Positions 19,663 through 39,757 of a DNA stretch of 64,000 bases are shown here, one piece after another; positions within the stretch are counted from its first letter, which is position 1; each line of letters begins with the position of its first letter. A program made the translations under genes and the position numbers. The stretch comes from Salana multivorans. Lineage in GTDB: Bacteria > Actinomycetota > Actinomycetes > Actinomycetales > Beutenbergiaceae. Location of the stretch: NCBI RefSeq assembly GCF_003751805.1, contig NZ_RKHQ01000002.1, positions 1 through 64,000 of the forward strand. Direction: 5' to 3'. The notes below the pieces were generated by a model. It had not been told where the DNA came from. It saw nothing but the letters and a program-made list of their open reading frames with translations, and ran no database searches.

Positions 19663-19734
19663 TGGGGTATGGTGTAATTGGCAGCACGACTGATTCTGGT
19701 TCAGTTAGTCTAGGTTCGAGTCCTGGTACCCCAG
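19663..19734 (+). tRNA. tRNA-Gln (CTG)
   Basis: 72 bases fold as a cloverleaf: acceptor TGGGGTA/TACCCCA, anticodon stem ACTGA/TCAGT with loop TTCTGGT giving anticodon CTG, T-arm GGTTCGAGTCC, discriminator G. CCA is not encoded (CGC follows). It reads CAG codons, the preferred Gln codon in this DNA. Confidence 0.96.
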
Positions 19735-19825
19735 CGCAACGGCGACACCGTGATTTCACTTCCGGGTGAGCATCCGGTACAGTCTCCGAGGCGCCAGAAC
19801 CGGAACCGGTCCTGGCCAGCGTGAC

Positions 19826-19898
19826 GGCCCCATCGTATAGCGGCCTAGTACGCCGCCCTCTCACGGCGGTAACGCGGGTTCGAATCCCGCTGGGGTCA
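19826..19898 (+). tRNA. tRNA-Glu (CTC)
   Basis: 73 bases: acceptor GGCCCCA/TGGGGTC with one G-U pair, anticodon stem CCGCC/GGCGG with loop CTCTCAC giving anticodon CTC, T-arm GGGTTCGAATCCC, discriminator A. CCA is not encoded. It lies 91 bases after tRNA-Gln on the same strand and is probably cotranscribed with it. Confidence 0.97.
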
Positions 19899-24113: not shown

Positions 24114-24974
24114 TCAGCCGGCCGGGCGCGGCGGCCCGGCCTCGACCAGCTCGACCTGGCGCTCGTACCAGGAGTCCGGCCCGTCCCAGTGCCCGTCGAT
24201 CCACCAGGTGGCACCGGCCGCCGCGTAGCCGGCGGCGCGCTCGGCGCTCGCGTCGGGGTCCTCGCCCGCGAACCGGCCCTGGATGACGACGTCGAACCCC
24301 GCCATCGCCTCCGGTCCTCCCCGCAGCTCGGTGAGGCGGGCCACGAGCGCGGCGACGTCCTCGGGGGTCGGGTCCTCCATCGCGCGCTCGCCCCGGAGCT
24401 GGACCACGATCCCGTCCCACCGCGCCGCCCGCGCCATCGAGCGAGGAGCCGGCCACACGCCGACCGGCCACACGGGGATCCGCGGGCGCCGGAGCGGCGG
24501 CGGAGAGACGAGCATCCGCTCGATCCGGTAGTGCTGGCCCTCGTGGTCGAACGGCTCGCCGGTGGCCGCGAGGTCGAGGATCGCGAGCGTCTCGTCCAGC
24601 AGCCCGGCCCGGTCCCGGAGCGACGCGGGGGTGCTGCCGCGGCCCGTCACGCCGGAGTACGCGCGATCCTCCAGCACCCCGACGCCGACCGGGAGCACCA
24701 GCCGCCCGCCCGACAGGTGGTCGACGGTGAGCGCCTGCCGCGCCAGCTCCCACGGCTGGCGGCGCGGCACGGCGAGGACGAGGGCGCCGAGGGTGATCCG
24801 CTCGGTCGCGGTGGCCGCGGCGGCCAGCAGCGCGAACGGGTCCCAGACCGGGTCGGGCCCGAGCGAGACGGCGTCCCAGGTGAAGAAGCCGTCCCAGCCG
24901 CCGGCCTCGGTCGCGCGGGCGAGGTGGACCTGCTGGCTCGGCGTGCCGAAGGCGCCGACGAATCCGAACTTCAT
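24114..24974 (-). CDS. LLM-class flavin-dependent oxidoreductase
   Basis: 286 residues of the bacterial luciferase-like fold: MKFGFVGAFGTPSQQVHLA, GGWDGFFTWDAVSLGPDPVW, ITLGALVLAVPRRQPWELAR and LSGGRLVLPVGVGVLED are the typical TIM-barrel landmarks. Likely FMN- or F420-dependent; the cofactor cannot be read from the sequence. Four bases past it lies the MarR gene on the same strand, so MarR and this enzyme may be one transcript. Confidence 0.85.
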   Translation of the reverse strand: MKFGFVGAFGTPSQQVHLARATEAGGWDGFFTWDAVSLGPDPVWDPFALLAAAATATERITLGALVLAVPRRQPWELARQALTVDHLSGGRLVLPVGVGVLEDRAYSGVTGRGSTPASLRDRAGLLDETLAILDLAATGEPFDHEGQHYRIERMLVSPPPLRRPRIPVWPVGVWPAPRSMARAARWDGIVVQLRGERAMEDPTPEDVAALVARLTELRGGPEAMAGFDVVIQGRFAGEDPDASAERAAGYAAAGATWWIDGHWDGPDSWYERQVELVEAGPPRPAG

Positions 24975-27747: not shown

Positions 27748-28275
27748 ATGGACAACGTGAAGTACCTGCTCATCCTGCTCCTCGTCATCGCCCTGCCGGT
27801 CGCCGGCTCGGTGCTCAAGCGCATGGCGAACGCGAAGGGGGACGAGCTGGGCCGGCGACGCCTCGCGAACCGGACGGTGCAGGCGCTCGAGCAGCTCGCC
27901 GTCTCGCTCGACGTCGCGGCGGACCCGGCCGCGGCGGCGCGACTCGTCACCGAGGTCGCCGACACGATGAAGAAGTGGCGCCGGGCGGGGGAGCTGGAGT
28001 GGCACCGCGAGGTGCTCTACCCGGCCGACATCGTCGTGCGTCTCGACCCGACCGAGACGGGCTGCCGCCTCGCGGTCGTCCGGACGCACGAGTCGGTCAC
28101 GGTCCCGCAGGGCGTGCGCGACTGGGAGCGCTTCCGGGACGCCGTCGCCGCCGCAGCGACGACGCACGGCGTCGCGACCGCGACGACGGCGAGCCACCCC
28201 ATGGTGCGGGTGCCCCGCCAGGAGCCCGCCGGTATCGGGCAGTCGGACCACCTGTGGGTGCGCGCCGACGCCTGA
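27748..28275 (+). CDS. Hypothetical protein with N-terminal membrane anchor
   Basis: 175 residues. Residues 5-23 are hydrophobic (KYLLILLLVIALPVAGSVL), followed by a helical region (about 28-85) and a C-terminal alpha/beta part. No known motif. It lies 48 bases after the MMPL gene on the same strand and may be cotranscribed. A bitopic protein with a cytoplasmic domain is the most that can be supported. Confidence 0.65.
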   Translation: MDNVKYLLILLLVIALPVAGSVLKRMANAKGDELGRRRLANRTVQALEQLAVSLDVAADPAAAARLVTEVADTMKKWRRAGELEWHREVLYPADIVVRLDPTETGCRLAVVRTHESVTVPQGVRDWERFRDAVAAAATTHGVATATTASHPMVRVPRQEPAGIGQSDHLWVRADA

Positions 28276-28325
28276 CCCGCGAGCGCCCGCCCTCGTGTGA
28301 GCCGGACCACATAATCAGAGCAACT

Positions 28326-28342
28326 GTCTCGCATTGCAAGAC
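28326..28342. promoter_or_regulatory. Near-perfect palindrome upstream of the ABC/LLM operon
   Basis: GTCTCGCATTGCAAGAC is an 8-1-8 inverted repeat with a single mismatched pair, about 94 bases before the substrate-binding protein start, in a locally AT-richer region. A 5-bp hairpin GGTTG/CAACC (28348-28363) follows. The site looks like a repressor operator; no regulator gene is adjacent. Confidence 0.5.
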
Positions 28343-28435
28343 TTATCGGTTGTCCCAGCAACCAGGGTGTGACTCCTCGTACCGTCGAGGCACTCGGCAC
28401 CGGCCGAGGTCCCTCAACACCGACGGAGCACCCGC

Positions 28436-30118
28436 ATGTCTCGCATCGCCCACCGACCCGCAGCTGGCATCGTCTCGTTCGCCGTCGCCGCCGTCATGCT
28501 CGCGGGCTGCGCCTCGGGCTCCGGGGGCGGCACCGCCGACTCGACCACCGACGCCGCCACCGGCTCGAGCGGGACGGACGCGACGCCGGCCGGCGACGTC
28601 CAGACCGGGGGAGAGCTGCTCTACCTCGAGTACCAGCCGTTCACGACCCTCTACCCGCCGCAGTCGGGCTTCTACCCGAACGGCGGCATCATCGCGAACA
28701 TCACCGACCGGCTCGTCTACCAGGACCCGGTGACGCTCGAGCTGGAGCCGTGGCTCGCCACCGACTGGACGGTCAACGAGGACGCGACGGAGTACACCTT
28801 CGACCTGCGCCCGGGCGTCACCTTCTCCGACGGGACGCAGCTGACGGCCGAGGTCGTCGCCAAGAACTTCGACCTCTACGGCCTCGGTGACGCCGAGCGC
28901 GGCTTCCCGGTCTCCGAGCAGATCAACAACTACGCCGGCTCGACCGTCGTCGACGAGGACACCGTCACGTTCAGCTTCTCCGCCCCCGCGCCGGGCTTCC
29001 TCCAGGCGACCAGCGCCAACGGCGCGGGCATCCTGTCCGAGGCGACCCTCGACGGCGACGTCGACTTCTTCGCCCCGGGCAACGCGACGCAGGTCGTCGG
29101 CACCGGCCCGTTCGTCGTCGCCGACGAGACGGTCGGGACGGAGCTGCTGCTCGAGGCGCGCGAGGACTACGACTGGGCGCCGCCGTCGCTCGAGCACCAG
29201 GGCCGCGCCTACCTCGACGCCGTCCGGTTCACGGTGACGCCGGAGGACGCGGTCCGCGTCGGGGCGCTCACCTCCGGCCAGGCCGACCTCGTCCGCTACG
29301 TCCAGGCGTACGACGAGCAGCAGGTCACGGGCGCCGGGCTCCAGCTCTTCGCCCCGCAGACCCAGGGCGTCAACAACTCCCTCTCGCTGCGGTTCACCAA
29401 CCCGATCCTCAGCGACCTCAAGGTCCGCCAGGCGCTCGTCGCCGGCGTCGACGCGCAGGAGGTCGTCGACACGATCTTCACCGAGAACTACCCGGCCGCG
29501 ACCGGCGTGCTCTCCCACACCGCCCTCGGCTACGTCGACGAGTCCGACCGGCTCGCCTACGACCCCGAGCACGCGGCCGAGCTCCTCGACGAGGCCGGCT
29601 GGACGCTGGACGGCGCCACCGACGGCATCAGGACCAAGGACGGCCAGCGGCTCTCGCTCGTCGCGTCCGAGGCCAAGCCGCAGCCGCTCTCCAAGGACAC
29701 GCTGACCCTCGTCGCGCAGCAGCTCGCGAAGATCGGCGTCGAGCTCAAGATCCTCGCCGCCGACGCCGGGACGTTCGCTGAGGCGATCGTCGACCCCGAC
29801 CAGGTGCAGCTCTACCACTCGATGGTCGCCCGCTCGGACCTCGACGTCATCAAGAGCCAGTACCACTCGCAGAACCGCAACTCGCTCCTCTCGACCGACG
29901 CCGAGCTGGACCGCCTCCTCGAGGTCGTCTCCTCCACGGCCGACCCGGCCGCGCGGCTCGAGGCGAGCAAGGCGGCCCAGGACTACCTCGTCGAGCAGGC
30001 CTACGTCATCCCGCTGTTCGAGGAGCCGCAGGTCTACGGCGCGCAGAACTACGTCCACGGCTTCGGCTGGGACTCGATCGCGCGTCCGATCTTCTACTCG
30101 ACCTGGCTCGAGGGCTGA
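28436..30118 (+). CDS. ABC transporter substrate-binding lipoprotein (family 5)
   Basis: 560 residues. Signal peptide with lipobox LAGC (Cys25), a Gly/Ser/Thr-rich linker, then the family 5 (oligopeptide/nickel) fold: YQPFTTLYPPQSGFYPNGGI, YTFDLRPGVTFSDGTQLTAE, FSFSAPAPGFLQ, LEAREDYDW and RQALVAGVDAQEVVDTI. I recall a subfamily of such proteins (named after Klebsiella KPN_01854) always found with a luciferase-like monooxygenase and CMD/AhpD-like proteins, exactly as in this operon. The ligand is unknown. Founding gene of the seven-gene unit. Confidence 0.9.
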   Translation: MSRIAHRPAAGIVSFAVAAVMLAGCASGSGGGTADSTTDAATGSSGTDATPAGDVQTGGELLYLEYQPFTTLYPPQSGFYPNGGIIANITDRLVYQDPVTLELEPWLATDWTVNEDATEYTFDLRPGVTFSDGTQLTAEVVAKNFDLYGLGDAERGFPVSEQINNYAGSTVVDEDTVTFSFSAPAPGFLQATSANGAGILSEATLDGDVDFFAPGNATQVVGTGPFVVADETVGTELLLEAREDYDWAPPSLEHQGRAYLDAVRFTVTPEDAVRVGALTSGQADLVRYVQAYDEQQVTGAGLQLFAPQTQGVNNSLSLRFTNPILSDLKVRQALVAGVDAQEVVDTIFTENYPAATGVLSHTALGYVDESDRLAYDPEHAAELLDEAGWTLDGATDGIRTKDGQRLSLVASEAKPQPLSKDTLTLVAQQLAKIGVELKILAADAGTFAEAIVDPDQVQLYHSMVARSDLDVIKSQYHSQNRNSLLSTDAELDRLLEVVSSTADPAARLEASKAAQDYLVEQAYVIPLFEEPQVYGAQNYVHGFGWDSIARPIFYSTWLEG

Positions 30119-30134
30119 GGGAACCGGTCGAGAG

Positions 30135-31070
30135 ATGAGCTACGTCGCCGGCCGCGTCGCGAGCGCCCTGGGGGTCCTGCTCGCCGCGTTCACCCTGGCC
30201 TTCCTCCTGCTCCAGGCGCTCCCGGGGGACGCCGTGATGATCCGGTTCGAGAGCCCCGAGCTGGGGCTCTCCCCGGAGCAGATCGCGACCATCCGGGAGT
30301 CCTACGGGGCCGACGCCGGGCTGCTCACCCAGTACGGCCACGCCCTGGCCGGCGCGGTCCAGGGGGACTTCGGCTTCTCGGCGGCGACGGGTGCTCCCGT
30401 CCGCGTCCTGATCGGCGAGGCGATCGGCTCGACGGTGCTGCTGGCCGTCCTCGGCCTGCTCACCGCGACGGTCCTTGCGGTCGCGCTCGCCGTCGCGGCG
30501 ACGCTCCTGCCGTGGTCCTGGCTGGCCGGCGCCATCCGCTCGCTGCCGTCGCTGTTCGTCTCGGTGCCCGTGTTCTGGCTCGGGATCGTGCTGGTCCAGA
30601 TCTTCTCGTTCCGGCTCGGCTGGATCTCCGTGATCCGGCCGGGCCCGCTCGAGGGGCTGATCCTTCCGGTGCTCACGCTCGCCGTCCCGATCAGCGCCCC
30701 GCTCGCCCAGATCCTGCTCCGCTCGATCGACACGGCGCGCGCGGCGCCGTTCGTCGGCGTCGTGCGGGCCAAGGGGGCGTCCGAGGGCTGGCTCCTGGCG
30801 AACAACGTGCTGCGCAACGCCGCCGTGCCGGCGCTCACCATCGCCGGCGTCCTGCTCGGCGAGCTGATCGGCGGTGCCGTCGTCACGGAGACCGTGTTCG
30901 CCCGCTACGGCATCGGCCGGATCACGGCGGACGCCCTCGCCACCCAGGACGTGCCCGTGCTCCAGGCGATCGTCGTCCTCGCGGCCGCCGCCTTCGTCGT
31001 CGTCAACCTCGGCGTCGACCTGCTCGCCCCGATCGTCGACCCGCGGCTGCGCCGCCGGGCCGCAGCCTGA
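30135..31070 (+). CDS. ABC transporter permease, DppB type
   Basis: 311 residues with six TM segments: N-terminal MSYVAGRVASALGVLLAAFT, VFWLGIVLVQIFSFRLGW, and the EAA loop RAKGASEGWLLANNVLRNAA that contacts the ATPase. VTETVFARYGIGRITADALA is the usual C-terminal mark of DppB/OppB proteins. Sixteen bases after the binding-protein gene and 10 before its partner permease. Confidence 0.92.
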   Translation: MSYVAGRVASALGVLLAAFTLAFLLLQALPGDAVMIRFESPELGLSPEQIATIRESYGADAGLLTQYGHALAGAVQGDFGFSAATGAPVRVLIGEAIGSTVLLAVLGLLTATVLAVALAVAATLLPWSWLAGAIRSLPSLFVSVPVFWLGIVLVQIFSFRLGWISVIRPGPLEGLILPVLTLAVPISAPLAQILLRSIDTARAAPFVGVVRAKGASEGWLLANNVLRNAAVPALTIAGVLLGELIGGAVVTETVFARYGIGRITADALATQDVPVLQAIVVLAAAAFVVVNLGVDLLAPIVDPRLRRRAAA

Positions 31071-31080
31071 GGAGCCCGCC

Positions 31081-32028
31081 ATGTCAACGGATCTCTCGCT
31101 CGCTCCCGGCCCCTCGGCCGTGCTCGCCGAGGAGGCGGGGGTCGACCCCGTCGAGGCCGGCGACGCCGCCGGTGCGGCCGGCACGGTCGGGGGCGTCGCC
31201 GCCGGCGGCGCGCCGGGCCGGCGTCGCCGCCGGCTGCCCGCGCTCACCGTGGTCGCCTCGTTCGCCCTCCTCGGGCTCGTGGTCGCCTGGGCGCTCCTGC
31301 CCGCGCTGTTCGGCCACGCCGACCCCTACGCCGGCGTGCCGAGCGAGAAGCTCGCCGGCCCGAGCCCCGCGCACTGGTTCGGCACCGACACGACCGGTCG
31401 CGACCTGTTCACCCGCGTGGTCTACGGCGCGCGCTACAGCCTGCTCGGCGGTGCCGTGGCGGTGACGGTCGGCCTCGTCGCCGGCACGGCCATCGGCGTC
31501 CTGGCCGGGACGATCGGCGGGATCCTCGACGAGGCGCTCATGCGCGTCGTCGACGTCCTGCTCGCGATCCCGGCCCTCCTGCTGTCGCTGTCGGTCATCA
31601 TCCTGCTGGGGTTCGGCACGACGTCGGTCGCGATCGCGGTCGGTGTCACGTCCGTCGCGGCCTTCGCGCGGCTCTCGCGCAGCGAGGTCGTCCGGGTCCG
31701 GCGCACCGAGTACGTCGAGGCGGCGTTCGGCAGCGGCGGGCGGTGGTGGCAGGTGCTCCTGCGGCACGTCCTGCCGAACTCGCTCACCGCGGTCCTCGCG
31801 CTCGCGGCACTCCAGTTCGGCACGGCGATCCTCGCGATCTCGACGCTCGGCTTCCTCGGCTACGGCGCCCCGCCGCCGACGCCCGAGTGGGGGCTGCTCA
31901 TCGCCGAGGGACGCAACTACCTCGCCACCGCCTGGTGGCTGACGACGCTGCCCGGCATCGTCGTCGTCCTCACCGTGCTGGCCGCGAACCGCGTGTCGGT
32001 CTGGATCGCGCGCAGGAGCGAGGCATGA
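31081..32028 (+). CDS. ABC transporter permease, DppC type
   Basis: 315 residues. A long soluble N-terminus (1-55, Ala/Gly-rich) precedes the first TM; then PAHWFGTDTTGRDLFTRVVY, the standard DppC/OppC entry motif, and five TM segments with the EAA-type loop YVEAAFGSGGRWWQVLLRHV. ISTLGFLGYGAPPPTPEWGL is also typical. Its stop overlaps the ATPase ATG (ATGA). Confidence 0.92.
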   Translation: MSTDLSLAPGPSAVLAEEAGVDPVEAGDAAGAAGTVGGVAAGGAPGRRRRRLPALTVVASFALLGLVVAWALLPALFGHADPYAGVPSEKLAGPSPAHWFGTDTTGRDLFTRVVYGARYSLLGGAVAVTVGLVAGTAIGVLAGTIGGILDEALMRVVDVLLAIPALLLSLSVIILLGFGTTSVAIAVGVTSVAAFARLSRSEVVRVRRTEYVEAAFGSGGRWWQVLLRHVLPNSLTAVLALAALQFGTAILAISTLGFLGYGAPPPTPEWGLLIAEGRNYLATAWWLTTLPGIVVVLTVLAANRVSVWIARRSEA

Positions 32029-33767
32029 GCACCGTCGGCACGAACCTGCTCGAGGTCACGGACCTCTCGGTCGGGTACGCGAGCGCCGGTGGCGCCCCCC
32101 GGGCCGTCACGCACGGCGTCTCGTTCGCGGTCGCGCCCGGCGAGGTCGTCGCGCTCGTGGGGGAGTCGGGGTCCGGCAAGACCACGACGGCCCAGGCGGC
32201 GATCGACCTGCTGCCCCCGGGTGGCCAGGTGCTCTCGGGGCGCATCGCGCTCGACGGCGAGGACGTCACGCGCGCCTCCCGTCGCCGCTGGCGCCAGCTT
32301 CGCGGTGCCCGGGTCGGGCTCGTCCCGCAGGACCCCGGCGCCTCGCTCGACCCGACCAAGCGGATCGGCGACTCGATCGCCGAGGCGTTCCGCATCCACG
32401 CCGGGGCGCGGGGTTCGGTTCCTCGACGGCTGGTGCGGCCGCGCGTGCTCGAGCTGCTCGAGCGCGTCGGCATCGACGACCCCGAGCGCCGGGCCCGCCA
32501 GTACCCGCACGAGCTGTCGGGCGGGATGAAGCAGCGCGTCCTCATCGCGGGCGCGATCGCGCTCGGGCCGGGCCTGCTCATCGCGGACGAGCCGACCAGC
32601 GCGCTCGACGTCACCGTCCAGCGCCGCATCCTCGCGCTCCTGGACGACCTGCGCCGCGAGCAGGGCACGGGCATCCTCCTGGTGACGCACGACCTCGCGC
32701 TCGCGGCCGACCACGCCGACCGGATCCTCGTGCTGCGCGACGGCCGGGTCCAGGAGGACGGGCCGGCGGCGCGGGTCCTGGCGGCGCCCAGCTCGGAGTA
32801 CACCCGCCGCCTGCTCGCCGACGCCCCGACGCTCGCCACCCCGATCCACCGGGCCGCGGTCCCGGCGGTCGGGGGCGGCGCGGCCGAGGCGTCCGACGGC
32901 GCGGCCCCGCCCGCCCTGTCCGTGCGGGACCTCACCGTCGAGTTCGGCGGCCCGGGCGTCTTCGCGCGGCTCGTCGGCCGCGGCCGGCCGGCGTTCCGCG
33001 CCGTCGACGGCGTCTCGTTCGACGTCCCGCGGGGGACGACGCACGCGCTGGTGGGGGAGTCGGGCTCGGGGAAGACGACGACGGCGCGCGCGGTCGCGGC
33101 CTTCCAGCGGGCCGCCGGCGGCTCGGTGACGCTGCTGGGGCGCGACGTCCGGTCCCTGTCCGCGGCGGGTCGGCGCGAGCTGCGCCGCAGCGTCCAGCTC
33201 GTCTACCAGAACCCGTTCGCCTCGCTGGACCCGCGACAGAGCATCCTCCAGGCCGTCGAGGAGCCGCTGACGAACTTCGGCCTCGGCTCGGCCGCCGAGC
33301 GACACGACCACGCCGTCAAGGCGCTCGAGCGCGTCGCTCTCCCGGCCGAGCTGCACGCGCGGAGGCCGCGGGAGCTCTCGGGTGGACAGCGTCAACGCGT
33401 CGCGATCGCGCGCGCCATCGTGCTGCACCCCGAGGTGCTCATCCTCGACGAGGCGACGAGCGCGCTCGACGTCACCGTCCAGGCCGGCATCCTCCGACTG
33501 CTCGACGACCTCCAGCGCGAGCGCGGGATGACCTATCTCGTCATCTCCCACGACCTCGCCGTCGTCCGGCAGATCGCCGACTCGATCACGGTGCTGCGAG
33601 GCGGCCGCGTGGTCGAGCAGGGCAGCACGAGCGAGATCTTCGAGCGCCCGCGCGCCGACTACACCCGCGAGCTCATCGCCGCGATCCCCGGCGCCTCGCT
33701 CGATGCGAGCCTCGCCGCCACCGGCACGACCAGCACGCTCAGCACGACCGCCCCGACAGGAGCCTGA
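32025..33767 (+). CDS. Dual ABC ATPase (DppD-DppF fusion)
   Basis: 580 residues holding two complete ATPase domains in one chain. Domain 1: Walker A GESGSGKTTTAQ (about 46), signature LSGGMKQR (about 165), Walker B LLIADEPTSALD. Domain 2: GESGSGKTTTAR (about 345), LSGGQRQR (about 452), LILDEATSALD. The linker is about 40 residues, Ala/Pro-rich. The fusion gives a fixed heterodimer for the heterodimeric permease pair. Two bases separate it from the monooxygenase gene. Confidence 0.94.
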   Translation: MSTVGTNLLEVTDLSVGYASAGGAPRAVTHGVSFAVAPGEVVALVGESGSGKTTTAQAAIDLLPPGGQVLSGRIALDGEDVTRASRRRWRQLRGARVGLVPQDPGASLDPTKRIGDSIAEAFRIHAGARGSVPRRLVRPRVLELLERVGIDDPERRARQYPHELSGGMKQRVLIAGAIALGPGLLIADEPTSALDVTVQRRILALLDDLRREQGTGILLVTHDLALAADHADRILVLRDGRVQEDGPAARVLAAPSSEYTRRLLADAPTLATPIHRAAVPAVGGGAAEASDGAAPPALSVRDLTVEFGGPGVFARLVGRGRPAFRAVDGVSFDVPRGTTHALVGESGSGKTTTARAVAAFQRAAGGSVTLLGRDVRSLSAAGRRELRRSVQLVYQNPFASLDPRQSILQAVEEPLTNFGLGSAAERHDHAVKALERVALPAELHARRPRELSGGQRQRVAIARAIVLHPEVLILDEATSALDVTVQAGILRLLDDLQRERGMTYLVISHDLAVVRQIADSITVLRGGRVVEQGSTSEIFERPRADYTRELIAAIPGASLDASLAATGTTSTLSTTAPTGA

Positions 33768-33769
33768 CC

Positions 33770-34792
33770 ATGACATCGAACGAGCTGCGCCTCGGCGTCT
33801 TCACCCGACTCCTCGACGACACCTCACCGGCCGAGCGCTACCGCAACGCCAGCGAGCAGATCGTCCAGGCCGAGGCCCTCGGCTTCCACTCGGCCTGGGT
33901 GGCCCAGCACCACTTCCACCGCGACGAGGGCGGTCTGCCGGCCCCCGCCGTGTTCCTCGCCTCCGTCGCGCCGCTGACCCGGCGGATCCGGCTCGGCTTC
34001 GGCGTCATCACGCTGCCGCTGGAGCACCCGCTCCGCGTCGCCGAGGACCTCGCGGTGCTCGACGAGATCTCCGGGGGACGCGTGGAGGTCGGGTTCGGGA
34101 CGGGCGGCACGCCGTCGTCCTTCCGCGCGTTCGGTCACGACGCCGCCGACCGGCGGCGGATCTACGCCGAGCACCTCGACGTCGTGACGCGGGCCTGGGC
34201 CGGCGACGACCTCGGCGACCCGGAGAACCAGCTCTACCCCCCGGCGCCCACGCTGCTGGAGCGGCAGTGGGAGGCGACCTTCTCCGTCGAGGGCGGCGCC
34301 CGCGCCGGAGCGAACGGCAACGGCCTGCTGCTCTCCCGCAGCCAGCCGCGTCCCGACGGCCAGCCCGACCTGCGGATCTGGGAGATCCAGGAGCCGATCG
34401 TCGCCGCCTACCTGGAGAACCTCCCCGACGGCGTCGCCCCGCGGATCGCCGCGTCGCGCACCGTCATCGTGACGGACGACGAGGCGACGGCCCGCCGCGA
34501 GGCCGAGCGCGGGCTGCGCGCGGTCGCCGGTCGCGCCGGGCTGTGGGGTCTCGACCCGGCCGGCTCGCTCGACCACCTCATCGCGGCCTCCGACACCGTG
34601 ACCGGGACGAGCGAGCAGGTGACCGAGCAGCTCGCCCGTGACACCGTGCTGCGCGACGCGACGGACCTCCTCGTCCAGGTGCACTCCGTCGACCCGGTGC
34701 ACGAGCTCGTCCTGCGCTCGCACGAGCTGCTCGCGACGCAGGTCGCGCCCGCGCTCGGTCGCCGGCTCGCGCCGGTGGAGGTGGGGGCATGA
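33770..34792 (+). CDS. Luciferase-like FMN-dependent monooxygenase of the importer operon
   Basis: 340 residues. TIM-barrel landmarks LRLGVFTRLLDD, AEALGFHSAWVAQHHFHRDE, RIRLGFGVITLPLEHPLRVA and LDEISGGRVEVGFGTGGTPS are clear. I recall this as the KPN_01858-type subfamily, defined by association with the same ABC importer and AhpD-like genes. It probably oxidises the imported compound with a flavin from a general reductase. The next gene overlaps its stop by 4 bases. Product unknown. Confidence 0.85.
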   Translation: MTSNELRLGVFTRLLDDTSPAERYRNASEQIVQAEALGFHSAWVAQHHFHRDEGGLPAPAVFLASVAPLTRRIRLGFGVITLPLEHPLRVAEDLAVLDEISGGRVEVGFGTGGTPSSFRAFGHDAADRRRIYAEHLDVVTRAWAGDDLGDPENQLYPPAPTLLERQWEATFSVEGGARAGANGNGLLLSRSQPRPDGQPDLRIWEIQEPIVAAYLENLPDGVAPRIAASRTVIVTDDEATARREAERGLRAVAGRAGLWGLDPAGSLDHLIAASDTVTGTSEQVTEQLARDTVLRDATDLLVQVHSVDPVHELVLRSHELLATQVAPALGRRLAPVEVGA

Positions 34793-35445
34793 GCGCGTCG
34801 GTCGCATCGCCGGACGTCCTGGACCGGGTCGCCGGGATCGAGCCGTCGAGCACGCTGGACGCGCTGCGGCACGCCCGGCCGGCCGCGCGGACGCACACCC
34901 AGCGGGCGCACGACGTGCTCCTGGACCCCGCCGACGACCGCGGGTTCACCCGCGCGGAGCGGCTCGCCGTCGCGAGCTTCGTGCTCGGCCTGCACCGCGG
35001 CGGGCCGGGCCGAGGGATCCCCGCGCTCGCCCAGACGTACGACGACGCCCTGCAGGAGCTCGCGCCGGACCTCGCGGACGCGGTGCAGCACGCGGCAACC
35101 GCCGCCCGTCGGCCGGGCCCGTACGGCGTGTACCGGGAGGTCGGTCTCGCGAGCGAGTCCGAGCCGGGGGAGGCGTTCACGGCCGCGGCCGACCCGGGGG
35201 CCGGGCTCGACGACCGGCTCGCGGCCGGGCTCGACCACGCCGCGCTGCTCGTCCTGCGACCGCGCGAGGCCTCGCCGGAGGCGCTCGCGGCGCTGGCCGG
35301 CGCCGGCTGGACGCCCGCACAGGTCGTCGAGCTGTCCCAGCTCGTCTCCTTCCTCACCTACCAGGCGCGCATCGCGCACGCGCTCGCCGTCGTGGTCGAC
35401 GACGACCCCGCGCTCGCCACCCGACCCGACGGAGACCCCCGATGA
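34789..35445 (+). CDS. CMD-domain protein (Avi_7170-like)
   Basis: 218 residues, helical, related to carboxymuconolactone decarboxylase folds: LHRGGPGRGIPALAQTYDDA, LDHAALLVLRPREASPEALA, AGWTPAQVVELSQLVSFLTY and RIAHALAVV. The CxxC redox pair of AhpD proteins is absent, so peroxidase activity of the usual kind is unlikely; a structural or substrate-binding partner of the following AhpD-like protein is more plausible. Overlaps its neighbours by 4 bases at both ends. Confidence 0.78.
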   Translation: MSASVASPDVLDRVAGIEPSSTLDALRHARPAARTHTQRAHDVLLDPADDRGFTRAERLAVASFVLGLHRGGPGRGIPALAQTYDDALQELAPDLADAVQHAATAARRPGPYGVYREVGLASESEPGEAFTAAADPGAGLDDRLAAGLDHAALLVLRPREASPEALAALAGAGWTPAQVVELSQLVSFLTYQARIAHALAVVVDDDPALATRPDGDPR

Positions 35446-36071
35446 CGACCGCCCCGACGACCGACCTGCACCGGCCCGAGCACTTCACGCGGGACGCGCT
35501 CGGCTGGGTGCCGTGGCTCGAGCCCCCGACGGCCGACGAGCTCACGCCGGAACAGGTCGAGGCGCTCGTCGAGCCCGGTCGCGTCGCGAGCCCGTACTTC
35601 CGGCTGCTGGCCCTGGCGCCGGAGATCCTGGAGTCGCGCACGCGCGCGGACCTCGACATGGTGCTGACGGGTGCGCCACGCCCGGGGCAGGACGGCGAGG
35701 GGCTGCCCCGCCCCGAGCGCGAGCTGGCCTCGACCGTCGCGTCGCGTCTCAACGGCTGCGTCTTCTGCGCGAGCGTGCACTCCCGGCTCGCCGCCCAGCT
35801 CGGCAAGCGGCCGGAGGAGGTCGACCTGCTGCTGCGCGACGGCGTCGCGGCGGCCGACCGGCTCGAGCCGCGGTGGGCCGCGGTCGTGCGGGCCGCTGCC
35901 GCGCTCTCGGCCACCCCGCCGACGTTCGACGCGGAGAACGTCGCCGAGCTGCGCGCCGTCGGTCTGTCCACCGAGGCCGTCCTCGACGCGGTCGGGTCGG
36001 CGGCGTTCTTCGCGTGGGCGAACCGGCTCATGCTGTCGCTGGGTGAGCCCGAGGTGCCCGCACCCCGTTAG
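35442..36071 (+). CDS. AhpD-like alkylhydroperoxidase-domain protein (Avi_7169-like)
   Basis: 209 residues. The AhpD/CMD core has the redox motif NGCVFCASVHSRLAAQLGK (CxxC with downstream His, about 103-110). The N-terminal part (HFTRDALGWVPWLEPPTADE) is typical of this operon-linked subfamily. The cysteine pair suggests thiol-dependent reduction, perhaps of a peroxide or hydroperoxide formed by the monooxygenase. Last gene of the overlapping unit; plsC follows after 11 bases, so readthrough into plsC is possible. Confidence 0.82.
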   Translation: MTTAPTTDLHRPEHFTRDALGWVPWLEPPTADELTPEQVEALVEPGRVASPYFRLLALAPEILESRTRADLDMVLTGAPRPGQDGEGLPRPERELASTVASRLNGCVFCASVHSRLAAQLGKRPEEVDLLLRDGVAAADRLEPRWAAVVRAAAALSATPPTFDAENVAELRAVGLSTEAVLDAVGSAAFFAWANRLMLSLGEPEVPAPR

Positions 36072-36082
36072 GATCGGCCAGC

Positions 36083-36934
36083 GTGGAGCACACCGAGCAC
36101 GACTACCCGCCGCGTCACAAGTCCGGCCACTACCGGTTCATCGCGGCGGTGGTCCGGCCCATCCTCAACGCGCTCGGCCGCAAGCGCTGGAGCGGGACGG
36201 AGAACCTCCCGGCCGAGGGCGGGTTCATCGTGGCGTCCAACCACCTGTGCAACCTCGACCCGCTCACGGTCGCCCACATGCTCTACAACAACGGGGCGCC
36301 GCCGCGCATCCTGGCGAAGTCGGAGCTGTGGCGGATGCCGATCATCGGCCCGACCATGCGGCACAGCCACATGATCCCGGTCGAGCGGGGCACCCGGACG
36401 GCCGCCGACTCGCTCGTCGCGGCGGAGGCGGCGATCGCGCACGGCGAGGCCGTGTTCATCTATCCCGAGGGCACGCACTCCAAGGACCCGGACAAGTGGC
36501 CCATGGTCGCCAGGACCGGCGTGGCCCGCCTGGCGCTCGCGACCGGCGCGCCCGTCATCCCCGTGGCCCAGTGGGGGGCCCACCTCGTCATGCCGAACCA
36601 CAAGCCGTGGTTCCGCCCGTGGGCGCAGCCGAAGTTCCAGGTGCTCGTCGGCACGCCCGTGGACCTGGCCGACCTGATCGGTCGCAGCGACCACGAGGCC
36701 CTCGTGGAGGCCACCGCCCGGATCATGCGCGCCATCACCGCGCTGCTCGCGCGGCTGCGCGGCGAGACGCCGCCCGAGATCCCCTGGGACCACCGCAGGG
36801 GCGGTCGCGTCGTGCGCGAGCCGAGGCCGGGGTCGGCCGAGGCGCGGGGGACCGACGAGGCGCGGACGGAGCAGGCCCGCCCGGGCGGGGCGGCCGACGA
36901 GGCCGGGGACACCGCCGGGGAGGACGCCTCGTGA
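36083..36934 (+). CDS. plsC: 1-acyl-sn-glycerol-3-phosphate acyltransferase
   Basis: 283 residues, PlsC/LPLAT family, making phosphatidic acid at the membrane. Catalytic NHLCNLD (HX4D, about 53-58) and FIYPEGTHSKD (acyl-acceptor motif, about 128) are present, with VARTGVARLALATGAPVIPV as motif IV. The C-terminus (230-283) is a charged low-complexity tail. GTG start at 36083. The gpsA GTG overlaps its stop, the usual plsC-gpsA coupling of two glycerophospholipid steps. Confidence 0.95.
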   Translation: MEHTEHDYPPRHKSGHYRFIAAVVRPILNALGRKRWSGTENLPAEGGFIVASNHLCNLDPLTVAHMLYNNGAPPRILAKSELWRMPIIGPTMRHSHMIPVERGTRTAADSLVAAEAAIAHGEAVFIYPEGTHSKDPDKWPMVARTGVARLALATGAPVIPVAQWGAHLVMPNHKPWFRPWAQPKFQVLVGTPVDLADLIGRSDHEALVEATARIMRAITALLARLRGETPPEIPWDHRRGGRVVREPRPGSAEARGTDEARTEQARPGGAADEAGDTAGEDAS

Positions 36935-37929
36935 GGGCCGTCGTCATCGGCTCCGGCGCCTGGGGCACGACCTTCGCCCAGGTGCTGGCGGACGCCGGCA
37001 ACGACGTCGTCGTGTGGACGACGCAGGAGGCCGTCGCCGAGGAGATCAACACCCGGCACACGAACGGCCGGCACCTGCCGGACGGGACCGTGCTGCCCGA
37101 GACCCTCGCGGCCTCGACCGACCTGGCGCGGCTGCTGCCGACCGCGGAGGTCGTCGTCGTGGCGCTCCCGTCGCAGGTGGTGCGCGACGTGCTCACCCCG
37201 TACGCGGGACTGGTCGCCCCCGAGGCGGTCGTGGTCTCGCTCATGAAGGGCGTCGAGCTGTCGACGCTCGAGGTGATGAGCCAGGTGCTCATGGAGATCT
37301 GGGACCTGGCACCCGAGCGGATGGCCGTCGTGTCCGGGCCGAACCTCGCGGGCGAGATCGCACGCCGCGAGCCGACGACCACGGTCGTCGCGTGCCGGGA
37401 CGATGCCGTCGCGCACCGGATCGCCGAGGCGATCGCGACGCCGTACTTCCGCGTCTTCACGAGCACCGACGTCATCGGGCTCGAGATCGGCGGCGCGGTG
37501 AAGAACGTCATCGCGCTCGCCGTCGGTATCGCCGAGGGGATGGGGTACGGCTACAACATGGTCGCGTCGATCATGACGCGCGGCCTGTCGGAGGGCACCC
37601 GGATCGGTCTCGCGATCGGCGCCGAGCGGGAGACGTTCCTCGGCCTCGCGGGCGTCGGCGACCTCGTCGCCACCTGCTCCTCGCCCAGCTCGCGCAACCA
37701 CCGGCTCGGCTCCTACATCGGCAAGGGGCTCACCCTGGCGGAGGCCGTCGAGGCGACCGGGGCGACGGCCGAGGGTGCCAAGTCCTGCCGGCCCATCCTC
37801 GAGCTCGCCCGGCGGCACGGCGTCAAGGCGTCCGTCATCGCGGCCGTCGTCGCCGTCGTGCACGAGGGGCGCGACCCGGCCCAGGTCGTTCGCGAGCTGC
37901 ACGCCCGCCCCCCGCGCGCCGAGGACTGA
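36931..37929 (+). CDS. gpsA: Glycerol-3-phosphate dehydrogenase [NAD(P)+]
   Basis: 332 residues. Rossmann motif VIGSGAWGTTFAQVLADAGN (about 5-24), SGPNLAGEIARREPT, the catalytic-Lys region GGAVKNVIALAVGIAEGMGY (about 190) and GLAGVGDLVATCSSPSSRNH are all canonical. Makes sn-glycerol-3-phosphate from dihydroxyacetone phosphate for lipid synthesis, feeding PlsC encoded just upstream. GTG start overlaps the plsC stop. Confidence 0.97.
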   Translation: MRAVVIGSGAWGTTFAQVLADAGNDVVVWTTQEAVAEEINTRHTNGRHLPDGTVLPETLAASTDLARLLPTAEVVVVALPSQVVRDVLTPYAGLVAPEAVVVSLMKGVELSTLEVMSQVLMEIWDLAPERMAVVSGPNLAGEIARREPTTTVVACRDDAVAHRIAEAIATPYFRVFTSTDVIGLEIGGAVKNVIALAVGIAEGMGYGYNMVASIMTRGLSEGTRIGLAIGAERETFLGLAGVGDLVATCSSPSSRNHRLGSYIGKGLTLAEAVEATGATAEGAKSCRPILELARRHGVKASVIAAVVAVVHEGRDPAQVVRELHARPPRAED

Positions 37930-38492: not shown

Positions 38493-39695
38493 TCAGCCCG
38501 CCTGCGACGCGACGAGCGCCTGGTCCAGGTCGGCCCACAGGTCGCGGACGTCCTCGATGCCGACGCTCACCCGGAGCAGGTCCTCGGGGACGCTCGGCGC
38601 CTCGTTCGGCCAGCGCCGACGCCGCTCGAGCATCGACTCGACACCGCCGAGCGACGTCGCCGGCAGCCACAGCCGCACCTCCTCGGTGAGCCGGCGCGCG
38701 GCCTCTGCTCCGCCGCGCACGCGCAGCGTGAGGATCGCGCCGAAGCCGTCCATCTGCCGGGCGGCGAGGTCGTGCTGCGGGTGGTCGGGCAGCCCGGGGT
38801 AGGACACCGCGAGCACGGCGGGGTGCTCGCGCAGACGCCCGGCCAGCTCGGCCGCGTTCTGCTGCGCGCGCTCCATCCGCAGCGCCAGCGTCCGCAGCCC
38901 GCGCAGCGCCAGCCACGCCTCGAACGGGCCGGCGATGCCGCCGCCCGTCACGCGCCGCTGCCGGACGCGGGCCCACAGGTCTGCGTCGCCGGTCACGACG
39001 GCGCCGAGCACGACGTCGGAGTGCCCGGCCAGGTACTTCGTCACCGAGTGGACGACGACGTCCGCGCCCAGCTCCAGCGGCCGCTGCAGCAGCGGCGTCG
39101 CGAACGTGTTGTCCACGACGACGACCGCGCCGACCGCGTGGGCGGCGCTCGAGACGGCGGCGACGTCCGCGACCTCGAGCATCGGGTTCGTCGGCGTCTC
39201 GAGCCAGACCAGGTCGGCGGGGCGTCCGGCGTCGCCGTCCGCGCCGTCCGTGCCATCCGCGCCGTCCGACCCGCGGATCGCGGCGACGACGGCCGCGGTG
39301 TCCGCGATGTCGACGCGACGGATCTCGACGCCGCACCGCTCCGCGAGCTGTCGGGCCGCGACCAGGGCCTCGTGGTAGGCGTGCCGGGGGACGACGAGCA
39401 CGCCGCCTGGCGGCGTGAGGTCCAGGACCGCGCTGATCGCCGCCTGGCCCGACCCGAACAGGAGACCCGGTCGGTCCGCGCCCTCCAGCTCGGCGATCGC
39501 CTCCTCCAGCGGGTGCCAGGTCTCGGTGTCGATCCGGGCGTAGACGAGGTGCTCCGGGCCCGCTGCACCGGGCCGCTCGGCCCCGACGTAGGTGCTCGAC
39601 AGGACGACCGGCGGGTTGACCGGCGCACCGGGGGTGCGGGCCGGGCGACCGGCCGCCACGACCGTCGTCGCCGGGCTGAGTGGGGAGTTGCTCAC
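38493..39695 (-). CDS. Cystathionine gamma-synthase/lyase-type PLP enzyme
   Basis: About 400 residues (GTG 39695; an ATG at 39734 would add 13). Trans-sulfuration fold: NPPVVLSSTYVG at the N-terminus, LLFGSGQAAISAVLDL (phosphate site), VVVDNTFATPLLQRPLELGA, VVHSVTKYLAGHSDVVLGAV with the PLP lysine in VTKYL, and GIEDVRDLWADLDQAL at the end. Synthase versus lyase cannot be fixed from sequence; methionine or cysteine metabolism. A run of near-perfect GAD repeats (GSDGADGTDGADGDAG) is inserted around 160. Divergent from ddl with 62 bases between. Confidence 0.88.
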   Translation of the reverse strand: MSNSPLSPATTVVAAGRPARTPGAPVNPPVVLSSTYVGAERPGAAGPEHLVYARIDTETWHPLEEAIAELEGADRPGLLFGSGQAAISAVLDLTPPGGVLVVPRHAYHEALVAARQLAERCGVEIRRVDIADTAAVVAAIRGSDGADGTDGADGDAGRPADLVWLETPTNPMLEVADVAAVSSAAHAVGAVVVVDNTFATPLLQRPLELGADVVVHSVTKYLAGHSDVVLGAVVTGDADLWARVRQRRVTGGGIAGPFEAWLALRGLRTLALRMERAQQNAAELAGRLREHPAVLAVSYPGLPDHPQHDLAARQMDGFGAILTLRVRGGAEAARRLTEEVRLWLPATSLGGVESMLERRRRWPNEAPSVPEDLLRVSVGIEDVRDLWADLDQALVASQAG

Positions 39696-39757
39696 GTCTA
39701 GCCACGGTACGCGCGTGGCGTCCCGGCTCTCCACCGGGCGCCGCGTAGTCTCGCCCC

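Follow-up and report, generated by a model that had tools for sequence, protein, structure and literature searches.

A conserved seven-gene operon for predicted import and flavin-dependent oxidation in Salana multivorans, with evidence that points to sulfur nutrition

The window analysed here is a stretch of 64,000 nucleotides from Salana multivorans (contig NZ_RKHQ01000002.1, positions 1 to 64,000), and its subject is an operon of seven plus-strand genes that fills positions 28436-36071. Behind a short upstream region, the operon encodes an ATP-binding cassette (ABC) importer, a luciferase-like monooxygenase dependent on flavin mononucleotide (FMN) and two proteins related to AhpD. The features are as follows.

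28276..28435, plus strand: upstream region with a putative operator, an imperfect inverted repeat
28436..30118, plus strand: family 5 extracellular solute-binding lipoprotein, TIGR04028 (748.3 bits, over the curated cut-off of 468.5; PF00496; structural model)
30135..31070, plus strand: Opp/Nik-type permease 1 (PF00528; best NCBIfam match Opp2B, 232 bits, below the cut-off of 350)
31081..32028, plus strand: Opp/Nik-type permease 2 (PF00528; best NCBIfam match Opp2C, 234 bits, below the cut-off of 300)
32025..33767, plus strand: fused dual ABC ATPase (two ABC_tran stretches in a single protein)
33770..34792, plus strand: FMN-dependent luciferase-like monooxygenase, TIGR04027 (NCBIfam, 472.8 bits, over the curated cut-off of 412.9; homologue of 8K74)
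34789..35445, plus strand: CMD protein without CxxC, TIGR04029 (160.6 bits, over the curated cut-off of 100.75), a putative degenerate AhpD-fold partner
35442..36071, plus strand: AhpD-like peroxidase-related protein with CxxC, TIGR04030-like (TIGR01926, 152 bits, over the cut-off of 81.8)

The gene set and its order agree with what had been described from the letters alone (the sequence-only reading), and the tight packing noted there, with overlaps or gaps under 20 bases, is borne out by the gene coordinates, which give spacings of +16, +10, -4, +2, -4 and -4 bases along the operon. NCBIfam and Pfam assign both permeases and the dual ATPase to the Opp/Nik type. That reading had also named the families TIGR04027 to TIGR04030. 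Searches with hidden Markov models (HMMs) placed the first three proteins over their cut-offs, while the AhpD-like protein scored 230.5 bits with TIGR04030 and stayed 2.65 bits short of the cut-off of 233.15. Given its full-length match and its identical gene context, the AhpD-like protein appears to be a divergent TIGR04030 relative.

The loci used for comparison came from one scan of a collection of named genomes, which confirmed 492 relatives and from which the best 80 were taken. Counting L052 and L019 once (they share a contig) leaves 79 scan loci, which with 14 others, including the window, make up a set of 93; a second set of 98 consists of the 93 without the window and six more plasmid loci. 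Loci from the same genus do not count as independent. All seven parts occur together at 75 of the 93 loci, and the monooxygenase, CMD and AhpD proteins at 88. Taken singly, a CMD match was found at 89 loci, an AhpD match at 88 and the binding protein at 77; the monooxygenase is present at all 93 by construction, because the loci were gathered by it. Ten loci hold the monooxygenase, CMD and AhpD genes without this transporter. With such counts (75/93 and 88/93) the seven-gene grouping is not a product of chance, and the conserved co-occurrence that had been suggested stands. Within the family of the source organism the monooxygenase exceeds its cut-off in 10 of 24 genomes. Among 396 sampled genomes of the phylum, with scoring confined to each genome's top candidates, the monooxygenase and the binding protein were both found in the same two genomes (the window's own and G366). 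The binding protein passes its cut-off in 12 of 25 genomes searched, 11 of which also have the monooxygenase, the exception being G005. The operon is found in plant-associated, soil and enterobacterial genera, Klebsiella among them.

The last two genes encode a pair in which one protein bears a CxxC motif and the other does not, as the sequence-only reading had it. The AhpD-like protein contains NGCVFCASVH, and its residues E94, C106, C109 and H113 (E-x11-C-x2-C-x3-H) are invariant in 33 of 33 sequences and in register with the catalytic residues of Mycobacterium tuberculosis AhpD (1gu9). A title in the Protein Data Bank mentions thioredoxin-like activity for the M. tuberculosis protein. For the AhpD-like protein of the operon, the evidence would equally allow a function as a thiol or sulfenate reductase. 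The CMD protein has no Pfam match and lacks cysteine altogether, and CxxC is found in none of 29 aligned relatives. The 26 top-ranked matches of its AlphaFold model (predicted local distance difference test score 88) are AhpD and peroxidase-related structures, with a best E value of 0.002 (none at 0.001 or better) and TM scores of about 0.5-0.6; the model thus predicts an AhpD-type fold. A single open frame holds both CMD and AhpD at 25 of the 93 loci, namely all 23 enterobacterial loci, Miniimonas and G016, an arrangement that speaks for their acting together in one complex.

The model of the binding protein is nearest to family 5 binders such as 5u4o (Z 39.0, root-mean-square deviation 2.6, 461 residues aligned) in a comparison that re-ranks Foldseek's own matches. 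These structural neighbours bind dipeptides, nickel complexes, opines, glutathione or signals. In DppA, R383 and D436 take part in ligand binding. Neither residue, both altered in 8z1z according to the entry title, is kept in the binding protein (alignment at about 24% identity), which has A413 at the first site and a gap followed by R466 at the second. The loss of both argues against ordinary dipeptides as the ligand. R466, which adjoins the second site, is invariant in 33 sequences.

The evidence points to sulfur nutrition, one option that the sequence-only reading had listed. Of 14 control genomes, only that of Corynebacterium glutamicum has a protein over the TIGR04028 cut-off; TIGR04029 and TIGR04030 were each passed by one control genome, with C. 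glutamicum among the matching genomes, which need not mean the passing ones. The likely C. glutamicum counterpart, cg2678-cg2674, resembles the operon in having a binding protein, a permease, a duplicated ATPase and a CMD gene in a row, as far as the available accounts describe it. These genes belong to the McbR regulon and are less transcribed in a cysR mutant, where an indirect effect is possible (PMC2580772, in the part available). The accessible text of a second report marks them as McbR-controlled, with a peptide transporter and a CMD protein, McbR being a sulfur repressor (PMC2807442). In the accessible part of a third, cg2678 is among the genes most induced in total starvation with 1 mM sulfate present (PMC6892785).

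Genes beside the operon point in a similar direction. At an Agromyces locus (L110), a gene for an NtaA/DmoA-type monooxygenase lies directly before the TIGR04027 gene. The best solved relative of its product is YtnJ/MoxC (E about 3e-69; 2e-61 for DszA), and we take YtnJ to be CmoJ. CmoO/CmoJ chemistry begins with sulfoxidation; CmoJ then cleaves the C-S bond of the alkylcysteine sulfoxide to give a sulfenic acid, and reduction and deacetylation follow (PMC10863075, in the part available). Relatives of the L110 neighbour flank 9 of the 98 loci with ten hits (Agromyces twice, G366 with two hits, Paenarthrobacter, Variovorax, Glaciihabitans, Rouxiella and Rhizobium twice), and at seven loci they lie within 1.1 kb. 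The family concerned, TIGR03860, has 97 hits in 36 genomes (about 200 Mb), a density that leads to about 0.6 hits expected in 1.23 Mb of flank, a rough figure because the count comes from a one-query blast at 1e-30 and the density from an HMM at 1e-60; the L110 hit is the query itself. Among the other neighbours, Nonomuraea jabiensis (L057) has a divergently oriented set of sulfate-transporter genes and Variovorax a regulator of the CysB type together with a sulfurtransferase, and sulfonate transporters are present in two Rhizobium plasmids and in Inquilinus. The distance from the locus to an SsuA gene outside it is 0.5 kb for Inquilinus (L117) and 5.4 kb for L057. In two Pantoea records an amidohydrolase gene follows the operon, which may be likened to the deacetylases of the Bacillus subtilis clusters (PMC12757645, in the part available). 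When E. coli sulfur proteins were blasted against the flanks of the 98 loci, most matches were generic ATPases.

The reading we find rather likely is that the operon serves sulfur scavenging, with an anionic organosulfur compound being imported and oxidised by the flavoenzyme, and oxidised sulfur or peroxide being reduced by the AhpD/CMD pair. The binding protein, the two permeases and the dual ATPase would import a small anionic organosulfur compound, for which a thioether or S-alkyl-cysteine-type compound is a first guess. The TIGR04027 enzyme would use reduced FMN and O2 to oxidise the compound at or next to the sulfur, making the sulfur releasable. Since no flavin reductase is found among the seven genes, the reduced FMN would be supplied by a reductase encoded elsewhere. 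The resulting sulfenic acid, disulfide or peroxide would be reduced by a complex of the CxxC-bearing AhpD-like protein and the CMD protein, which lacks cysteine. Import followed by flavin oxidation, as proposed in the sequence-only reading, is retained here in general terms together with the CMD-AhpD pairing; the peroxide or hydroperoxide product proposed there is one candidate among others. A narrower version, which we offer tentatively and regard as possible but doubtful, is that the operon represents a further kind of organosulfur salvage, a third after Ssu/Tau and Cmo/Scm. An S-alkylated, N-blocked cysteine compound or other anionic thioether would enter by Opp-type import and be oxidised by the TIGR04027 enzyme, and a heteromeric AhpD/CMD complex, as a dedicated sulfenic-acid (or persulfide) reductase, would return the thiol.

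Several observations weigh against a role in sulfur nutrition. We infer only from matching gene order that the C. glutamicum TIGR04028 protein is cg2678, and that genome has no TIGR04027 enzyme over the cut-off, so its regulon supports the transporter and CMD part and not directly the monooxygenase. The query of the neighbour search was chosen as a known shared neighbour, and the hits in Agromyces, G366, Paenarthrobacter and Glaciihabitans are therefore not independent; without these four query-linked actinobacterial genera, four hits are left (Variovorax, Rouxiella and Rhizobium twice). No L110-type neighbour was found at 1e-30 at 89 of the 98 loci, and two genomes that carry the operon, G022 and G023, have no TIGR03860 match at 1e-60 genome-wide. 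For the 98 loci, the density searches covered 36 genome or plasmid entries with TIGR03860 and 33 with SsuA. As background, about 181 Mb contain 135 SsuA-family genes, and none was found in the operon flanks of the 31 genomes searched (about 0.3 expected). They neighbour the operon only in two plasmids, both known beforehand to have them; being at background level, the sulfonate-transporter neighbours are not significant. Coincident SsuA coordinates in four other genomes turned out to lie on other contigs. Within 28276-28435 there is no match at two or fewer mismatches to TAGAC-N6-GTCTA, which we assume to be the McbR motif, and no sulfur regulator was seen at the window's operon. Finally, the Klebsiella proteins that rise under iron limitation include KPN_01858 together with TauC, a pairing that speaks for a sulfur role, but the induction of KPN_01858 is reported for iron and not for sulfur limitation (PMC7194016, in the part available).

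The upstream region was also examined for regulatory patterns. The putative operator, GTCTCGC-ATT-GCAAGAC at 28326-28342, resembles a repeat upstream of the Miniimonas operon and is the sole match in the window at two or fewer mismatches, yet a shuffled window would by chance contain 3.7 such matches, which makes it weak evidence. A known riboswitch upstream of the operon was considered and rejected, as Rfam at gathering score gave only two tRNAs (19663-19898) in the window. Upstream of the family's operons, the pattern ATCTGAGAC gave 17 matches in 12 genomes versus five for the reversed control pattern; behind the nine of these 17 that were inspected, two were the operon itself and no regulon was seen. 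A 30-bp block upstream of the enterobacterial operons was turned into a matrix from nine sequences and scored on 247 kb of E. coli. Among about 494,000 positions, metF ranked 3rd, cysK 4th, tauA 42nd, cysP 170th, ssuE 425th, sbp 527th and tcyJ 1727th, and the controls lacZ, metB and phoA ranked 698th, 867th and 2668th. The strict form of the 30-bp pattern occurs in 8 of 15 genomes, where eight of its nine matches are the operon's own promoter and the ninth (G420) lies before a membrane-fusion-type transporter gene. Seven one-mismatch matches were inspected, of which two lie before an amino-acid-type binding protein and the others share no common theme.

Comparison with known systems shows partial likeness in each case. 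The CmoO/CmoJ S-alkylcysteine salvage of B. subtilis and its scm (yxe) cluster likewise use FMN-dependent luciferase-family monooxygenases for sulfur salvage, and some operon loci resemble them further in having an NtaA/DmoA-type second monooxygenase or an amidohydrolase alongside. The Cmo and scm clusters presumably also carry importers. In contrast to them, the window's operon has a family 5 Opp-type importer, a fused dual ATPase and the AhpD/CMD pair, and its seven proteins include no acetyltransferase, no (M20) deacetylase and no CmoJ-like protein. The ssuEADCB and tauABCD systems similarly join an importer and an oxygenase for sulfur scavenging, but the SsuA-type binding protein and the SsuD-type monooxygenase are of other families, and a search of the window's genome with TIGR01728 gave nothing at 1e-25. 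With their defining parts absent, we do not count the operon as a member of the Cmo or the Ssu system. The Klebsiella genes KPN_01854-01858/PCX02514 resemble the operon in that the monooxygenase is homologous and the transporter gene order is the same (K. pneumoniae CP125156), with an AhpD-type gene directly 3' of the monooxygenase; they differ in that CMD and AhpD share one open frame.

An unlikely alternative, for which several observations nevertheless speak, is that the operon imports and oxidises a sulfur-free nitrogen or carbon source (an opine, an N-acyl amino acid or a modified small molecule), with the AhpD pair clearing peroxide made by the flavoenzyme. The opine, nickel, glutathione and signal binders among the structural neighbours of the binding protein would suit such a ligand. 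At two loci, L089 and L126, the monooxygenase is preceded by a Liv-type branched-chain amino acid ABC transporter, indicating that the importer type is exchangeable, and the neighbourhoods of the operon are diverse, with sarcosine oxidase genes in Paracoccus. A sulfur-free substrate would, however, leave unexplained both why McbR regulates the C. glutamicum counterpart and why NtaA/DmoA-type neighbours are in excess.

We regard it as quite improbable that the monooxygenase oxidises carboxylate chains and that the operon imports and degrades acidic oligomers for carbon. A close homologue of the monooxygenase, the Klebsiella orthologue PCX02514, has a crystal structure (8K74, E 5.7e-105) and is published as a poly(acrylic acid) oxidase (PMC11354265). 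As far as the available part of that report goes, the enzyme oxidises poly(acrylic acid) with reduced nicotinamide adenine dinucleotide phosphate (NADPH), giving a product C6H10O5 and lowering the molecular weight of the polymer, and its mutants R10A, R125A, S186A, R187A and H253A are less active, a body of data that counts against a sulfur substrate. These residues map by alignment, with numbering guided by a K. pneumoniae homologue, to R13, R128, S189, R190 and A256 of the window's monooxygenase. Most are conserved: the columns of R10, S186 and R187 are invariant in 12 sequences and that of R125 holds arginine in 11 of 12, the H253 column being variable. Conserved arginines would suit any anion, however, and a positively charged pocket fits an anionic substrate of any kind. 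Moreover, the reported turnover is 0.002 per second, and neither FMN nor its reduced form FMNH2 supported the reaction despite the luciferase-type enzyme (PMC11354265, in the part available); poly(acrylic acid) oxidation was rejected as the physiological role. A long polymer is also unlikely to pass through an importer with a family 5 binding protein, and the sulfur regulon and the AhpD pair would be left unexplained.

An oxidative-stress module, in which the AhpD/CMD pair and the monooxygenase act against peroxides and the importer supplies a protective compound, is in our view very improbable. The intact AhpD catalytic site is in keeping with it, as is an OsmC-like protein that adjoins the operon in Nonomuraea (L034, 11761-12291; 55 bits, below the model cut-off of 95) and belongs to a neighbour cluster found at 13 loci in six genera, but the gene order suits nutrient uptake better. 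Peroxidases are themselves part of the response to sulfur starvation, so their presence does not separate stress from sulfur nutrition: LsfA and Ohr take part in it in Pseudomonas aeruginosa, where ahpC, ahpF and ahpB are slightly down (PMC12581299, in the part available), and AhpC is cited as part of such a response in the accessible text of PMC7661421. An ordinary peptide or nickel importer that shares an operon with stress enzymes by happenstance has hardly any probability left and was rejected, since, for all the Opp/Nik-like character of the binding protein and permeases, the NikA model TIGR02294 gives the binding protein 142.9 bits against a cut-off of 393, the DppA and GsiB models are also far under theirs, the DppA residues are lost and the seven parts stay together across loci.

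Further features surround the operon. Eleven bases past its end begins the first of two frames at 36083-37929, acyltransferase-like and then gpsA-like (names by inspection); neighbours of this kind are common to G006, G023 and Miniimonas, so the operon may read through into them. At 38496-39734 on the minus strand, 2.4 kb past the operon, lies a gene for a cystathionine gamma-lyase/synthase-like pyridoxal phosphate enzyme (PRK07582, 380 bits, cut-off 440), a possible link to sulfur amino acids. Immediately 5' of the operon, a 175-residue frame at 27748-28275 has no NCBIfam match at 1e-8, and a fragment of a luciferase-family frame (TIGR03619, 82 bits) is found at 24534-24842 on the minus strand. 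The same genome carries a second, related set on contig C1 at about 1.2286-1.2408 Mb (L189 and L190), with a TIGR04028-like binding protein (188 bits, below the cut-off), matches to an Opp-type permease and dual ATPase, TIGR04027-like paralogues and the genome's sole TIGR03860 match at 1e-60.

The sequence-only reading had called the pathway undescribed. This no longer applies to the Klebsiella monooxygenase orthologue, which has a structure and a published activity (PMC11354265, in the part available), but it agrees with the lack of any mention of the TIGR model names in the literature searched. A search with the four KPN and Avi locus names gave one proteome mention only, and word searches that paired sulfur terms with the gene types brought up no recognised description of the gene set. 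The families are thus already known, and a link of the whole set to sulfur nutrition was not found in the literature searched. With sulfur nutrition as a proposed role, four families curated as hypothetical equivalogs gain a function that can be tested, as does the AhpD/CMD pair, and it becomes doubtful that the activity on poly(acrylic acid) published for the Klebsiella orthologue is its physiological role. Because the operon is spread across genera that include Klebsiella, a single growth experiment would be informative for many genomes.

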